From Shimia biformata (GTDB lineage Bacteria > Pseudomonadota > Alphaproteobacteria > Rhodobacterales > Rhodobacteraceae): a stretch of 64,000 nt of DNA. Below the pieces are notes generated by a model. The model did not search any database. It worked only from the letters and a program-made list of their open reading frames with translations, and had not been told where the DNA came from. Of the stretch, positions 5,286 to 17,735 are shown in pieces. Position 1 is the stretch's first letter. Every line of letters starts with the position of its first letter. The position numbers and the translations under genes were made by a program. The stretch covers positions 1,025,475 through 1,089,474 of the forward strand of contig NZ_JAFEJK010000001.1 of NCBI RefSeq assembly GCF_016888515.1, given 5' to 3'.

Positions 5286-5588
5286 TTACAGCGGCACGTC
5301 ATCATATCCGCGTTTCGTGGCACTTTTCCCGGACATCATCGACAGAACCCGTGTCGCTTGCGCCGAGTAATCCGCCAGCGCGTCCTGATAGAATTGTGTC
5401 TGCACCTTCATCAGATCGGCGGGCGACTTGCAGGCAAGCAAGGCCTTCTGGGTTTCCCTGTCCTTTTGCAGCCGATCCGTCATGAACCGGACGCTTTCCG
5501 CCATGACCTCCTGCCAGGCGGCAGCGGCGGCCGGGTTGAAAACCGTCATCGGGTTGGGCGTCGTCTCGGGCTTCTTTTTCGTGGCCAT
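5286..5588 (-). CDS. Phasin family protein (short)
   Basis: A 100-residue, mostly helical protein starting MATKKKPETTPNPM, with the Phasin_2-type pattern: a Trp near residue 25 (AAWQEVM), FMTDRL, a Cys (LLACKSPADL), then QTQFYQDALADY. Phasins coat polyhydroxyalkanoate granules; small ones of this kind are common in Rhodobacteraceae. The ATG at 5588 is preceded by an ideal site (GGAGGT, 6 bases upstream), which decides against the longer open frame. A TAGAAT -10 box lies at 5641-5646 on this strand. It is convergent with rplW and back to back with the AbiJ-like gene. No PHA genes are nearby, so the granule role is inferred from family only. Confidence 0.8.
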   Translation of the reverse strand: MATKKKPETTPNPMTVFNPAAAAAWQEVMAESVRFMTDRLQKDRETQKALLACKSPADLMKVQTQFYQDALADYSAQATRVLSMMSGKSATKRGYDDVPL

Positions 5589-5793
5589 GATTGCACCTCC
5601 TTCTGCCATGCCGCGCCGGAAGGGGAGCGGCACTTTGGGTATTCTAGCACAGGGGAGCGGCGGGGGATTTGATTTGGATCGTGTTGGGTGGGGGCTTCGA
5701 AACGCTCTAGTCGGGATGCGGGTTTTCGACGCTATACAATTTGTTGGTCACGACATCTATTGTGGCGGCAATAGCAAGATTGGGATCAAAATC

Positions 5794-6642
5794 ATGACGC
5801 GCGATTCTACGTATGTTCCCTTTTCACAGCGTGAGGGATTTGAGCCAATTCCAACCCAGTTGCAAATCGGAGAGGTTTCAGGCGAACTAAGACGCCTAAT
5901 CGACTATTTCATCCGGTTGGAAATAGAGCGTGAAAGTCATTCTGGTTACGAAAGTACTTACTTCGACCCAGATTGGGCGCGAGTTGCAAAAGACTTTCAT
6001 GTACTATTTCTAAAACTGCCGGCGTCAAGTTACAGCGGCGGCCCATATGAATTCAGGAAGCTCATTGAAAATTGGACCACACGACTTGGTGTTGGGAGGC
6101 TTTTTGACATGGTTGAATTTTTCGTTCGCCACCAAAACTGCAGTGCCGAATTGAAACGTGACCTAGCTAGTGCGTTTGAAACATCTCTGGCAGCCTACCG
6201 AGTTGTTGATAGACAAATCGTTGCAATTGGAAACGAGCAACAAGCTGAAGCCTTTATGGGCGCACTTAAGCAAACTGAGAAAACAGGAGCTTCGGCGTCG
6301 CGCCAACATTTAGTTGCCGCAGGGAAAGAGTTGGTTGCCGCAAACTGGGCAGGTAGCGTTAGGGAAAGCATACATGCTGTCGAGGCCATGGCAGTCAAGC
6401 TGGCACCGGAAAGAAAAACACTAGGAGCCGCATTGGACACACTAAGCGGTCAAGCTCATTTACATGGCGGCTTAAAGGCAGCGTTCAAAGCTCTGTATGG
6501 ATGGTCAAGCGACGAAGAAGGTGTTCGTCACGCATTGGTTTTCAATAACGAGGCCAAAGTTGATGAAGCCGACGCATTGTTCATGTTGGGCGCCTGCGCG
6601 TCATTTGTTTCCTACTTAATTGCACGGAGCAGCGGCCCATAG
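5794..6642 (+). CDS. AbiJ-like abortive-infection protein (AbiJ_NTD4 plus HEPN-type C-terminal domain)
   Basis: A 282-residue protein. The N-terminal block FSQREGFEPIPTQLQIGEVS (residues 10-29) followed by ELRRLIDYFI matches the start of AbiJ_NTD4-type proteins. The C-terminal part has the family's HEPN-like pattern: VRESIHAVEAMAVKLAP (189-205, Arg190 and His194), TLGAALDTL, LHGGLKAAFKALYGWSSDEEG, VRHALV (Arg245-His246) and DEADALFMLGACASFVSYLI. Proteins with this architecture belong to abortive-infection systems in which HEPN domains usually act as RNases; activity here is inferred. The gene is clearly AT-richer than its neighbours (27 G/C in bases 5941-6000 versus 43 in bases 7021-7080 inside rplB), a sign of transfer. 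A TATACA box at 5733-5738 supports the ATG at 5794 rather than upstream starts. It sits alone between rplW and rplB. Confidence 0.82.
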   Translation: MTRDSTYVPFSQREGFEPIPTQLQIGEVSGELRRLIDYFIRLEIERESHSGYESTYFDPDWARVAKDFHVLFLKLPASSYSGGPYEFRKLIENWTTRLGVGRLFDMVEFFVRHQNCSAELKRDLASAFETSLAAYRVVDRQIVAIGNEQQAEAFMGALKQTEKTGASASRQHLVAAGKELVAANWAGSVRESIHAVEAMAVKLAPERKTLGAALDTLSGQAHLHGGLKAAFKALYGWSSDEEGVRHALVFNNEAKVDEADALFMLGACASFVSYLIARSSGP

Positions 6643-9137: not shown

Positions 9138-9551
9138 ATGCTTCAGCCAAAGCGTACAAAATTCCGCAAGATGCACAAAGGCCGCATCAAGGGCGATGCG
9201 AAGGGTGGCAGCACCCTGAACTTCGGTTCCTTCGGCCTCAAGGCGACCACGCCCGAGCGTGTCACCGCGCGTCAGATCGAAGCCGCACGTCGTGCCATGA
9301 CCCGTCACATGAAGCGTCAGGGCCGTGTGTGGATCCGCATCTTCCCCGACACTCCGGTCACCTCGAAGCCGACCGAAGTCCGTATGGGTAAAGGTAAGGG
9401 GTCCGTCGATTATTGGGCCGCCAAGGTCAAACCGGGTCGCGTCATGTTCGAACTGGACGGCGTGAGCGAGGAAGTCGCGCGTGAGGCCCTGCGCCTGGCC
9501 GCGATGAAACTTCCGGTGAAAACCCGCGTCGTGGTTCGCGAAGACTGGTAA
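9138..9551 (+). CDS. rplP: 50S ribosomal protein L16
   Basis: 137 residues. [16 protein letters not shown] start and the conserved [27 protein letters not shown] region identify L16, which positions A-site tRNA. In E. coli an Arg of L16 is hydroxylated by the 2-oxoglutarate oxygenase RoxA/YcfD; a putative oxygenase gene follows here at 9998. Last gene of the second block, with a terminator 20 bases downstream; rpmC, normally adjacent, is 1.8 kb away. Confidence 0.97.
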
Positions 9552-9571
9552 ACCCTGTTTTCCTGACAAGA

Positions 9572-9612
9572 TAAAAAAAAGCCCCCGCCGGTCTCTGGTG
9601 GGGGCTTTTTGC
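9572..9612. terminator. Terminator after rplP
   Basis: A hairpin with arms AGCCCCCGCC and GGTGGGGGCT-type pairing is preceded by A8 and followed by TTTTT, so it could work in both directions. Confidence 0.85.
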
Positions 9613-9736
9613 ATTCTATGGGGTAATTGCCCTCAACTGTGGCAAATCCGACTCTGCCGCACATCTTTGCCGGGAAACAGGCGACGGCGATCGAAATCGC
9701 TGTTATACTTCCGCCATAGTAAATCCGGAGACATCC

Positions 9737-9943
9737 ATGTCCCAGCTTGATACCAGTATCGATGTTCATCAGATCCGGGAAAACTACCCGGACTGCCCTC
9801 AGCGCGAAATGGCGCTGAATCTGCTGAGACGAGGTCATGTTGACCAGTGCCGCGCGTGGCTTGAGGCGCTGGATCGCATGATCGAGGACGGACAGGCCCA
9901 GTTCCAGCGTGACGACTCATCCACAGATCGCCGTAGAGCCTGA
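9737..9943 (+). CDS. Small hypothetical protein
   Basis: A 68-residue acidic, helical protein with no signal peptide or membrane segment and no motif that I recognise; the C-terminus is charged (DDSSTDRRRA). Support for a real gene: a CCGGAGA ribosome site 6-8 bases before the ATG and an extended -10 box (TGTTATACT, 9701-9709) upstream. It ends 54 bases before the oxygenase-like gene, so the two may be co-transcribed. Confidence 0.55.
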   Translation: MSQLDTSIDVHQIRENYPDCPQREMALNLLRRGHVDQCRAWLEALDRMIEDGQAQFQRDDSSTDRRRA

Positions 9944-9997
9944 CAGGATACGCAGAACGGCTCTCGCACCGATGAACATTCCGCGTTAAGACGCGTT

Positions 9998-10618
9998 ATG
10001 GCCCAGATAGAATCTCTCTTTGTGACCCGACTGTACCGTGCCCGCCTGTCCGAACAGGGCACACCGATTGATGCCAATGAACTGGCGGGATCCTGTTATT
10101 CGATTGCCGAGGATGACGAGGCGGGGCAGGCCTGGTGCGAGGAAAACGGCTATCCCGGTTATACATCCTACGCGTCGCTGACAGATCTGCCGTGGCGTTT
10201 CCCGATCTTTGCCGACCTGGTGACCGCGCTGGATGCCCATGTCGCGGCATTTGCCGAGGACCTGGAGTTCGACCTGGATGATCGCGCGCTGGTGCTTGAG
10301 GATCTGTGGATCAACATCCTGCCAGAAGGCGGCACTCATTCCAGCCACCTGCACCCCCATTCGGTGATTTCCGGCACGACCTATGTCGCCATGCCCGATG
10401 GGGCGTCTTCGTTGAAACTCGAAGATCCGCGTTCCGCCCGGATGATGGCAGCGCCGACCCGCAAAAAAGACGCCCGGCGAGAATTGCAGCCCTTCATCTA
10501 TATGAAGCCCGATGTCGGCGACGTACTTCTGTGGGAAAGCTGGTTGCGCCATGAGGTCCCGATGAACATGGCCGAGGAGGAACGGATCTCGGTTAGCTTC
10601 AACTACAAGTGGGAGTGA
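9998..10618 (+). CDS. Putative 2-oxoglutarate/Fe(II)-dependent oxygenase (TIGR02466-like)
   Basis: A 206-residue protein resembling the TIGR02466 / 2OG-FeII_Oxy_5 family. The central block LWINILPEGGTHSSHLHPHS (103-122) followed by VISGTTYVAMPDGAS supplies His residues (114, 117, 119, 121) expected for iron binding, and the C-terminal part has DVLLWESWLRHEVPMN (His185) and an Arg at 196 in ERISVSFNY, the usual place for the 2-oxoglutarate-binding Arg. The substrate is unknown for the family. It is directly downstream of rplP (L16) and upstream of cspA, which raises, but does not prove, a link to translation. No signal peptide, so cytosolic. Confidence 0.75.
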   Translation: MAQIESLFVTRLYRARLSEQGTPIDANELAGSCYSIAEDDEAGQAWCEENGYPGYTSYASLTDLPWRFPIFADLVTALDAHVAAFAEDLEFDLDDRALVLEDLWINILPEGGTHSSHLHPHSVISGTTYVAMPDGASSLKLEDPRSARMMAAPTRKKDARRELQPFIYMKPDVGDVLLWESWLRHEVPMNMAEEERISVSFNYKWE

Positions 10619-10882
10619 GGCGAGCCCCCCGTCCGTGGCACTTGCTTGGCCAAGAGAAATCCTCGTACGCGGATCTTTGGCGGGTATTGACCTGAAAAAA
10701 ATGTCGGTTGACCCAGATAACGAACCGCTTGTGTTTCTCTTGAATTGCCGTCTTAGGCAGCGGGCAAAAGTTTTTCTATTTCGACCATCGTCTCTCGTTT
10801 AATCGCGTTCAGACTTTCGATCCAGACTGACCGCGCCAGGCCGCTGCATCATGCGGGCGGCAATAAGCAGGAGATTACGGAT

Positions 10883-11089
10883 ATGGCCACTGGCACCGTA
10901 AAATGGTTCAACGCGACAAAAGGCTTCGGCTTCATCGCACCCGAGGGCGGCAGCAAGGATGTGTTCGTCCACATCTCGTCCGTCGAGCGTTCGGGTCTGT
11001 CCGGGCTTGCCGACAACCAGAAAGTGACCTTTGTTCTGGAAGCAGGTCGCGATGGTCGCGAGTCGGCAGTGAACATCGCCCTGGTCTGA
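10883..11089 (+). CDS. Cold shock protein, CspA family
   Basis: 68 residues, one OB-fold cold-shock domain. Both RNA-binding motifs are intact: KGFGFI (RNP1, residues 13-18) and VFVHIS (RNP2, about 27-32). Such proteins melt RNA secondary structure. It starts after a gene-free stretch of 264 bases (10619-10882) that ends with a GGAGAT ribosome site; a long leader is typical of cold-shock mRNAs and may hold thermosensing structure, but no obvious promoter stands out. A terminator follows. It is a monocistronic insert between ribosomal blocks. Confidence 0.92.
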
Positions 11090-11112
11090 TTGACCAACAG
11101 TATGAGCTATTG

Positions 11113-11145
11113 ACGCGGTTCCCGTTGCGGGGGCCGCGTTTTTTG
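11113..11145 (+). terminator. Terminator after the cold shock gene
   Basis: Arms GACGCGG and CCGCGTT with an internal CCCG/CGGG pairing, followed by TTTTTT, 24 bases past the stop codon. Confidence 0.85.
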
Positions 11146-11191
11146 TTTCACGAAGTGAGGCACAAAGATTGGCAAAAGGACCGAAACTTAC

Positions 11192-11220
11192 TTGCCATCC
11201 CGCCAAGGCACCCTTATAGA
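11192..11220 (+). promoter_or_regulatory. Promoter of the spc block (rpmC onward)
   Basis: TTGCCA (11192-11197), 17-base spacer, TATAGA (11215-11220). Transcription would start near 11227, about 110 bases before rpmC. Confidence 0.72.
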
Positions 11221-11338
11221 GCGCCATCTCGCGGATTCCGGCAACGGGATTCGCGCGTTTGTTATTTTGTCCATCAGGCACAAGGTGACCCTGACATAAC
11301 CGCGGGGGCCTTCTGATGTATGAGAAAGGAAGAGGCGC

Positions 11339-11545
11339 ATGAACGCCAACGAACTGCGTGATAAAACGCCGGATCAGCTCCGTGAGGAACTGGCCAACCT
11401 GAAGAAAGAAAGCTTCAACCTGCGTTTCCAGGCGGCCACCGGCCAGCTTGAAAACCCCGCTCGCATCCGCTCGGTCCGTCGTGACGCTGCGCGTGTGAAA
11501 ACCATCCTGAACGAAAAGGCCGCTGCCGCGGCATCGGAGGAGTAA
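11339..11545 (+). CDS. rpmC: 50S ribosomal protein L29
   Basis: 68 residues, two-helix protein with [20 protein letters not shown] and [20 protein letters not shown], the L29 hallmark. Binds near the tunnel exit beside L23. The C-terminus is Ala-rich. First gene of the third ribosomal block; rpsQ starts 4 bases after its stop, with the ribosome site GGAGG inside its end. Confidence 0.96.
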
Positions 11546-15711: not shown

Positions 15712-15746
15712 AAACGCCCCGGTCAGAAATGGCCGGGGCGTTTGTC
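15712..15746. terminator. Terminator after rpmD
   Basis: AAACGCCCCGGTC and GGCCGGGGCGTTT form a strong stem around AGAAAT. It overlaps the stop codon of the convergent gene on the minus strand and may serve both. Confidence 0.85.
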
Positions 15747-16131
15747 ATTTCTTCGACGCCTGCAACCGTTCTACGGCGGCCTCTGCGACATGGCGGGGTA
15801 TTCGAAACTGTTTCCGGGCTGCCAACCCTTCTGGAATCTCCGCGCCGATTAGGTTGAGCGCGTGTCTAAGGTGGATGCCGGACAAGACGATGGCGTCAGG
15901 GTCTTCACCTGTAACGCGGTTAATCCAGCGGCCGCCAAACCAGCGCGCGCGTCTTCGCGCTCCGTTTGCCTGTGCCAGGCGCACCTGCAGGAATGTCAAA
16001 AGTTCATCATCCTGAAATCGCATCAGATCCGCGGCTGTGGACCCGGCCCCGAGCAAGGGCGCAACCCCGTCGACTGTGGCCTCGGACAAGTTGCGCATGG
16101 TTGAATTTCGGTTTGATCGTTCCTTTGACAT
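15745..16131 (-). CDS. Hypothetical protein
   Basis: 128 residues from ATG 16131 (an in-frame ATG at 16098 would give 117). Soluble, basic and helical, with a motif-like stretch RARWFGGRWINRVTGEDPDAI and a C-terminal helix; I do not recognise the family. Codon use and composition resemble the neighbours. No strong ribosome site precedes either start, so the start is uncertain. Its stop codon lies inside the rpmD terminator. It is one of four genes that split rpmD from rplO. Confidence 0.6.
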   Translation of the reverse strand: MSKERSNRNSTMRNLSEATVDGVAPLLGAGSTAADLMRFQDDELLTFLQVRLAQANGARRRARWFGGRWINRVTGEDPDAIVLSGIHLRHALNLIGAEIPEGLAARKQFRIPRHVAEAAVERLQASKK

Positions 16132-16364
16132 GGTTGCGAAGGTGGCATCGAGGCACACAACGGTCAACCAACATGCGGTGGCGGCACTTTTTTGCCCTTC
16201 CTTCGTGGGGAGGTTCTTCTGCCCGCACAACCTGAACCAAGGGCAGGCGAGTTCAAAGGTTCCATGCAGATTGCGCAACACCGGCTTGTCCTGTTGACTG
16301 TGGCTCGAAGCAGTGAAGGGGCGTAGTCGGGCGCTAACACGTACATTTTATCGGAGAAAAATTC

Positions 16365-16484
16365 ATGCCAACCCCGATCCAATCCGCTGGCCCGATCCAG
16401 ACCCACGTCGCAAAACTAAAGTCAGCGTGGACCCAAGGTCTCGTGCCCTATTGGGCCGATTACCTGCATCAGGATCCACGTTGA
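16365..16484 (+). CDS. Possible 39-residue micro-protein
   Basis: A short frame MPTPIQSAGPIQTHVAKLKS... ending HQDPR. The ATG has a good ribosome site (GGAG 8-9 bases upstream) in a locally AT-rich leader (ACATTTTATCGGAGAAAAATTC). No family is recognised and the frame could be chance; it is the only coding candidate in the 375-base stretch 16132-16506, which otherwise shows nothing clear. Confidence 0.35.
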   Translation: MPTPIQSAGPIQTHVAKLKSAWTQGLVPYWADYLHQDPR

Positions 16485-16506
16485 ACTTTTTCGGCGTCCG
16501 CTGCGC

Positions 16507-17172
16507 CTAGGCGTTTGCACCCGCTACTGCGAACGCATGGTCGCGGCGGGGCCAGTAAAGGTAGGCGATCAGGTAGCCGAGCCCAATGTTCATGCTCAGG
16601 TAGATCAGCGTGGTGACGGGTGAAAGCAGAGCAACCGGGGCCAGCACGACAACCGCACGTGCCAGCCATCTGGTGGAATTGGCGGCGCGGCCCTCCTGCA
16701 AGATGAGGAAGGACAAGGTCAGTGTCAGCAGCAGGCCGAAGTTGAACTTGCTCTGGGTCACGACCGTTTCAAAGGTGATCCGTGCCATGTCCGGCATTTG
16801 TCCGCGCTCGGCTGCCGCGGCAATCGCCAGGATGTGATTGTTCTCGATGAAGTCCAGCCCGGCGGTCATCAGCACAGCAATCAGGGCAAGAATGCCCGCC
16901 GTTCGGCGTTCGGGTACCAGTTGGACCATGGCAAAGACCATGGTGACGTAAGAAAAGATATACATCGTATCCAGAGGGTAAATCAGCCGCAGCACGGGTG
17001 CGGAGCTTACGATCGCATCACCATAGGCTTCGGGCGTGCCGTGGCGCAGGATCGATTCGAAATCCTGAAAGCCGGTGCCGTTCTGCACCGAAATGCCCAC
17101 CATCAACGCCACCATGGTAGCGCCAAAGCCAGCGCAGAGTGCCACCAATCGGGGCAGGTTCGTCTGTGTCAT
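16507..17172 (-). CDS. Multi-pass membrane protein of unknown function
   Basis: 221 residues with about six hydrophobic helices: near residues 8-28, 68-86, 91-108, 144-160, 167-186 and 188-206. Acidic/polar loops include FQDFESILRHGTPEAYGD and DFIENNHI. No catalytic motif is recognised. It is transcribed divergently from the HxlR-type regulator at 17292, with an inverted repeat between them, so it is probably the regulator's target. Confidence 0.7.
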   Translation of the reverse strand: MTQTNLPRLVALCAGFGATMVALMVGISVQNGTGFQDFESILRHGTPEAYGDAIVSSAPVLRLIYPLDTMYIFSYVTMVFAMVQLVPERRTAGILALIAVLMTAGLDFIENNHILAIAAAAERGQMPDMARITFETVVTQSKFNFGLLLTLTLSFLILQEGRAANSTRWLARAVVVLAPVALLSPVTTLIYLSMNIGLGYLIAYLYWPRRDHAFAVAGANA

Positions 17173-17226
17173 GTCGTTTTCCTATCAAAGGTTCAAATCT
17201 CGCTTGATGCGACTCAGTTCAAAAGG

Positions 17227-17258
17227 TGAACTGACAATTTGTTTGCATAGACAGTTCA
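17227..17258. promoter_or_regulatory. Inverted repeat between the membrane gene and the HxlR gene
   Basis: TGAACTG (17227-17233) and CAGTTCA (17252-17258) form a perfect dyad with an 18-base spacer in an AT-rich divergent promoter region. HxlR-family dimers bind such dyads; the assignment is inferred. Confidence 0.6.
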
Positions 17259-17291
17259 GTTTTGCAACTCTCTCGTTGAAAGGGGAGTGAT

Positions 17292-17735
17292 ATGAAGCGC
17301 AACGACTTCTCCCAGTGGGATTGTTCACTCGCACGGACCGTGGACATCATCGGGGACTGGTGGACGCCACTGATCTTGCGAGACGCGGCGCGTGGGGTGA
17401 CCACCTTTGAAGACTTTCATCAGTCTCTGGGGGTCAGTCGCAACACGCTGACCCAACGCCTGAACCGGCTGGTCGAGCATGGGATGCTGGAAAAGACCCT
17501 CTATAGCGACCGACCCAAGCGTTATCGCTATGTGATGACCGCTCAGGGGGTGGACTTCGTGCCCGTGCTGATGGCGATGGCGGCCTGGGGCGACAAGTGG
17601 ATCGCCGATACCGCTCCGCCGTTCCGCGTGCGTCACAAAACCTGCGGGGCCGAGGCGACAGCGCGGGTTGTCTGCGCATGCTGCGAAGCGCCGCTTGCGC
17701 TCAGCGATTTGGAACCTTTGGACGAGGCCGCCTGA
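17292..17735 (+). CDS. HxlR-family transcriptional regulator
   Basis: 147 residues. The winged-helix domain shows the family pattern: CSLARTVDIIGDWWTPLILRD (11-31), FEDFHQSLGVSRNTLTQRLNRLVEHGMLEK (41-70) and the wing YSDRPKRYRYVMTAQG. After it comes a Cys-containing tail (HKTCGAEATARVVCACCEAPL) that might bind metal or sense redox. MarR/HxlR proteins of this kind usually repress a divergent gene in response to aldehydes, quinones or oxidants; the ligand here is unknown. A GGGGAGT ribosome site precedes the ATG. Confidence 0.88.
   Translation: MKRNDFSQWDCSLARTVDIIGDWWTPLILRDAARGVTTFEDFHQSLGVSRNTLTQRLNRLVEHGMLEKTLYSDRPKRYRYVMTAQGVDFVPVLMAMAAWGDKWIADTAPPFRVRHKTCGAEATARVVCACCEAPLALSDLEPLDEAA

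Follow-up and report, generated by a model that had tools for sequence, protein, structure and literature searches.

The locus studied here raises the question of whether an oxygenase gene that lies beside the gene for ribosomal protein L16 owes its place to a substrate on the ribosome. The window, a stretch of 64,000 nucleotides from Shimia biformata, carries rplP (L16) at 9138–9551 (+) and, downstream of it on the same strand, an open reading frame at 9998–10618. In this frame a sequence-only reading had seen a putative Fe/2-oxoglutarate (2OG) oxygenase of a TIGR02466-like family and, from its proximity to rplP, a possible hydroxylase of ribosomal proteins or translation factors.

The assignment to this family was confirmed by profile matches, conserved residues and fold. 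The frame is intact, begins with ATG and encodes 206 amino acids, which match TIGR02466 with 300 bits (cut-off 62.5) over model positions 1–200 of 201 and PF13759 (2OG-FeII_Oxy_5) with 123.4 bits (gathering cut-off 27) over profile positions 2–101 of 101. Only PF13759 and a weak PF13640 match were listed by hmmscan, and the protein does not belong to JmjC_2 (PF08007). Among sequences of known structure it matches 3BVC (E 7.6e-112) and 2RG4 (E 1.2e-108), and a profile search of the PDB sequences beyond these two orthologs gave chance matches only. The gene is thus an ordinary ortholog of the 2RG4 and 3BVC proteins and a member of a known family, for which a literature search on TIGR02466, PF13759, 2RG4, 3BVC and three-histidine 2OG enzymes found no functional work. 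It is the single TIGR02466 copy of the source genome, and searches of that genome with the RoxA-type profile PF08007 and with PF13640, the family of many prolyl hydroxylases, gave no match.

The gene had been described as lying immediately downstream of rplP and before a cold shock gene. It does lie downstream, but 446 bp separate the rplP stop from the oxygenase start codon, and this interval holds a GC-rich stem-loop with a T-run resembling an intrinsic terminator (about 9580–9609, +) and a 68-aa open reading frame (9737–9943, +). The latter matches no Pfam family over cut-off, and a few relatives (Shimia and loci L180 and L063) have homologs of it at the corresponding site (44–57% identity). 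On the 3′ side of the oxygenase there is indeed a CspA-type cold-shock gene (10883–11089, +), followed by a terminator-like stem-loop (11112–11140, +), but it is an occasional resident of the gap and no general neighbor, being there in 9 of the 76 named relatives and missing from all other loci examined (loci from some 55 genera). The far edge of the gap is formed by rpmC (L29; 11340–11546, +), with which the downstream ribosomal block opens. Of 60 oxygenase-carrying relatives, 46 have a terminator-like structure after rplP, compared with 2% of shuffled sequences. A promoter-like site at 9986–10013 was discarded, as such a site is to be expected by chance and this one overlaps the oxygenase start codon. 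The oxygenase gene therefore lies in the gap that separates two ribosomal blocks and not inside one message; it is not in the rplP operon and is probably transcribed separately from rplP. Judged from sequence, it lacks the fixed orientation and shared transcription that would mark a ribosomal operon-linked modification enzyme, with a terminator-like structure standing between the genes and the two orientations being equally frequent among relatives (57:57, see below).

The junction between rplP and rpmC (9552–11339 in the window) is of a similar kind across the Rhodobacteraceae, where a terminator and a variable gap split the ribosomal gene blocks; in Escherichia coli the ribosomal genes are arranged contiguously, without this split. 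The ribosomal cluster of the source genome also has two insertions besides the oxygenase gap. At 5286–6642, between rplW and rplB, are a phasin-like gene (−) and a gene for an AbiJ_NTD4-domain protein (+), AbiJ domains being linked to abortive infection, and at 15745–17735, downstream of rpsE and before rplO, are an HxlR-type regulator and two open reading frames with no Pfam match.

Conservation of the rplP–oxygenase adjacency had been suggested as a check, and within the family the adjacency held. TIGR02466 proteins are present in 165 of 196 sampled Rhodobacteraceae genomes (72 of 88 genera). When listed positions of the TIGR02466 gene and rplP were compared in the 122 genomes with both on one contig, the oxygenase was found within 4 kb downstream of rplP in 114 (93%), with six of the eight exceptions at 9–24 kb downstream and two far away. 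It lies between rplP and rpmC in the loci fetched for some 55 genera and is the only recurrent gene of this gap, other clusters of open reading frames reaching at most five loci and being mostly singletons. Genomes that lack it have a mostly short gap of 115–450 bp. In the oxygenase tree one branch, modestly supported (66), sets the Rhodobacteraceae proteins apart, which is consistent with a single origin.

Other aspects of the adjacency did not hold, namely strand, retention in every lineage and occurrence outside the family. Among the 114 genomes the gene lies on the same strand as rplP in 57 and on the opposite strand in 57; in a set of 80 named close-relative loci, in which Ruegeria, Shimia and Leisingera are over-represented, the gene was same-strand in 56 and opposite in 20, and four had no rplP in the fetched stretch. 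Both the ribosomal and the oxygenase tree need 16 orientation changes, but as these trees are weakly resolved the supported minimum is lower, and the well-supported branches alone force six to eight changes on the ribosomal tree and two on the oxygenase tree. The gene is also dispensable in several lineages. Decay in the same gap is seen in L169, which holds a 70-aa fragment (L169:4360–4569), and in L175, whose copy (L175:1997–2725) departs from the family after residue 183. These losses and decayed copies indicate that the oxygenase is accessory, though widely kept. Outside the family, rplP was absent from the 11–13 kb around oxygenase relatives at 20 loci from other alphaproteobacterial families. 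These loci shared almost no informative neighbors, as seen with a crude picker of open reading frames that favored long antisense frames in GC-rich DNA. An attempt to derive function from gene context outside the Rhodobacteraceae was dropped, there being no rplP and no informative common neighbor in the 20 loci.

A benchmark for such persistence is offered by rarA, which encodes a non-ribosomal replication and repair ATPase and lies farther down the same ribosomal cluster. Of 89 genomes with rarA and rplP on one contig, 85 carry rarA on the rplP strand and no more than 40 kb downstream of rplP, a limit wider than the 4 kb used for the oxygenase. Being about as persistent around the cluster, rarA indicates that long synteny is normal there in Rhodobacteraceae. 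Taken together, the position on either strand, the losses, the lack of rplP linkage outside the family and the persistence of rarA argue that the adjacency is inherited synteny and does not point to a ribosomal substrate. The place beside rplP looks inherited, historical rather than functional, and says little about the job of the protein. The earlier argument from proximity, undone by these same observations and by the intervening terminator, carries no weight, and the case for an L16 hydroxylase can no longer draw on proximity to rplP. The locus is instead an example of an accessory gene that a whole bacterial family has kept inside a ribosomal cluster, with no conservation of strand.

A ribosomal protein (L16 or a neighbor) or a translation factor, for example EF-Tu, is possible even so as the substrate, with no support from proximity, and the position of the gene in the cluster would then reflect this. 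The location kept in 93% of same-contig genomes would fit such a role, as would a genome with neither PF08007 nor PF13640 proteins, where the role would not be filled by those families. A weak lean to a protein substrate is also given by the predicted fold, whose closest characterised structure is PPHD, an EF-Tu prolyl hydroxylase. These points are countered by the random strand, the terminator between the genes, the multiple losses, the orthologs elsewhere that are not near rplP and the similar persistence of the non-ribosomal rarA. L16 itself offers nothing in favor: R82 of the window protein is the counterpart of E. coli R81, the arginine hydroxylated by RoxA, and it never varies, whether or not a genome carries the oxygenase, its immediate flank likewise being identical except at position 79. 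We therefore consider a ribosomal or EF-Tu substrate improbable. The columns that covaried most strongly with oxygenase presence were L16 positions 12 (M/Q), 25 (S/F) and 79 (T/V/I) and S17 position 60 (L16 states: L159–L238). Covariation of ribosomal residues was rejected as substrate evidence, since as far as tested it follows phylogeny, with L175 and its gene-less neighbors sharing states; an independent-pairs test had only four pairs on supported branches and so little power.

An AlphaFold2 model of the oxygenase, built with relatives from the window and databases, had a mean pLDDT of 90.9 and matched the ortholog 3BVC with a Z of 29.4. The predicted fold is the double-stranded beta-helix of the Fe(II)/2OG-dependent oxygenase superfamily (Z 15–16 to PHD2 and P4H), and next in rank to the two orthologs were the Pseudomonas putida prolyl hydroxylase 4J25 (Z 16.2) and PHD2 (Z 15.8). 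Ranked nearby in Foldseek were the small-molecule enzymes HygX, SnoN, PolD and GriE. These neighbors bear on the alternative that the substrate is a small molecule, for example an amino acid, an osmolyte, a lipid head group or a secondary metabolite. Many bacterial 2OG oxygenases act in this way, and the presence of several 2OG oxygenase paralogs per marine phage genome (Table 3, PMC3037559) suggests diversification of substrate. No conserved biosynthetic neighbors accompany the gene, however, neither the gap residents nor the outgroup neighbors being conserved, and a small-molecule substrate seems rather unlikely, if less so than a ribosomal one. A protein side chain is probably the substrate, judging purely from the likeness of the modeled fold to PPHD and PHD2.

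The structure prediction and active-site comparison that the sequence-only reading had called for thus gave PPHD as the best characterised neighbor, but the HxD…H signature of PHD and PPHD was not found, the oxygenase having HxH…H. Its candidate metal ligands are H117, H119 and H185 and its candidate 2OG-binding residue is R196 (protein numbering). All four are invariant in 44 of 44 family members, where W104 and N106 are also among the invariant residues. The viral relatives had been retrieved by motif, which biases them towards it; 27 weaker, distant TIGR02466 matches chosen by HMM therefore served as a counter-sample, and in all 27 the four residues were again invariant. The sequence HLH…H departs from the HX(D/E)…H facial triad. 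Alignment to PF13640 proteins by hhalign left the metal register ambiguous, with H119 aligned to the histidine of HxD and position 121 at that of the acid. In neither register was a conserved acidic residue found at the canonical position among the 44 and 27 members, and position 121 is variable. D143 is common in cellular members and not in phage members. An arginine does follow the last histidine, R196, and from its position it would bind the 2OG carboxylate.

A natural HxH…H in a PHD-like fold is unexpected, because the Asp to His change at the metal site of human P4H gives an inactive enzyme (PMC2767507) and PPHD uses H124, D126 and H183 (PMC6235002). The protein may on these grounds be no hydroxylase at all, its three histidines, with no conserved carboxylate, serving other metal chemistry or a metal or 2OG sensor. 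This would suit the presence of HxH…H in every HMM-selected member sampled, the inactive P4H variant and the known three-histidine site of cysteine dioxygenase, an enzyme that does not use 2OG (PMC2767507). On the other hand, conservation of R196, at the position that usually binds 2OG, equals that of the histidines, and the model has a complete PHD-like fold; a protein that does not hydroxylate appears distinctly unlikely. A three-histidine metal site in this oxygenase is suggested by the conserved residues. That the TIGR02466/PF13759 proteins as a whole are true 2OG-dependent oxygenases, with a natural three-histidine iron site and a 2OG-binding arginine, is put forward as a tentative proposal, with the chances somewhat against it.

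The explanation we prefer, with confidence evenly divided for and against, is that of a single-domain TIGR02466 oxygenase with a candidate three-histidine/2OG site, encoded by an accessory gene that is widely retained, probably transcribed on its own and placed beside rplP for historical reasons. Most likely a single event in a Rhodobacteraceae ancestor brought the gene between rplP and rpmC, and it would since have been inherited in the gap with repeated strand flips in place and loss in some lineages. The protein is predicted to fold as a PHD-like double-stranded beta-helix in which H117, H119 and H185 would hold iron and R196 the carboxylate of 2OG. Oxygen and 2OG would be converted to succinate, CO2 and a ferryl species that would hydroxylate a C–H bond, the likeliest target being a side chain of a cytosolic protein. 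Several points speak against this explanation. Persistence at one gap through many strand flips could reflect selection for the place, tree support for the flips is weak, and the rarA benchmark used 40 kb against 4 kb. The chemistry assumed may also be wrong, given that a prolyl hydroxylase engineered to three histidines has no activity (PMC2767507), and the fold search lists HygX, SnoN, PolD and GriE as well.

Of the leads from this locus, the most interesting is the metal motif, conserved and free of a carboxylate. Should the HxH site prove real and active, the rule from P4H mutagenesis that such hydroxylases need a carboxylate would be contradicted. TIGR02466/PF13759 proteins are carried by many marine Alphaproteobacteria and cyanophages, and the Rhodobacteraceae ortholog would, if this is true, give a first handle on their substrate.

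Among known systems, the closest to the oxygenase are 2RG4 (Oceanicola granulosus) and 3BVC (Roseovarius nubinhibens), uncharacterised structures from Roseobacter-group bacteria, which match it over the full length with 76–80% identity and an rmsd of 1.4–1.5 Å and show no essential difference from it. The 2OG-Fe(II) oxygenases of cyanophages and pelagiphages (PHROG 81) belong to the same family by profile (102 bits), with 272 phage records matching it. They share the HxH…H and the arginine but differ in having only 25–31% identity and several paralogs per phage, and for the cyanophage enzymes the only proposed role is in 2OG balance (PMC3037559). One viral record stands apart, a 63% identical homolog (L239:3001–3618) right at one end of a 67 kb IMG/VR contig, which is far closer than the other viral members and may be host DNA flanking a provirus. 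P. putida PPHD, the EF-Tu Pro54 4-hydroxylase (4J25/4IW3), and human PHD2 share with the model the double-stranded beta-helix core (164–170 residues aligned) and the C-terminal histidine and arginine. They differ in sequence (11–16% identity), in having HxD where the oxygenase has HxH, and in their substrate-contacting C-terminal helix, which is missing from the oxygenase model, the last element of which is a strand at 196–205 of the 206-residue chain. RoxA (YcfD), the L16 arginine hydroxylase, is of the JmjC type and resembles the oxygenase in predicted 2OG chemistry; it has dimerisation and winged-helix domains (PMC4295552), whereas the oxygenase is one domain of 206 aa. With no PF08007 protein in the genome and a model resembling PHD-type enzymes, the oxygenase is, as had been proposed, of a different fold class from RoxA.
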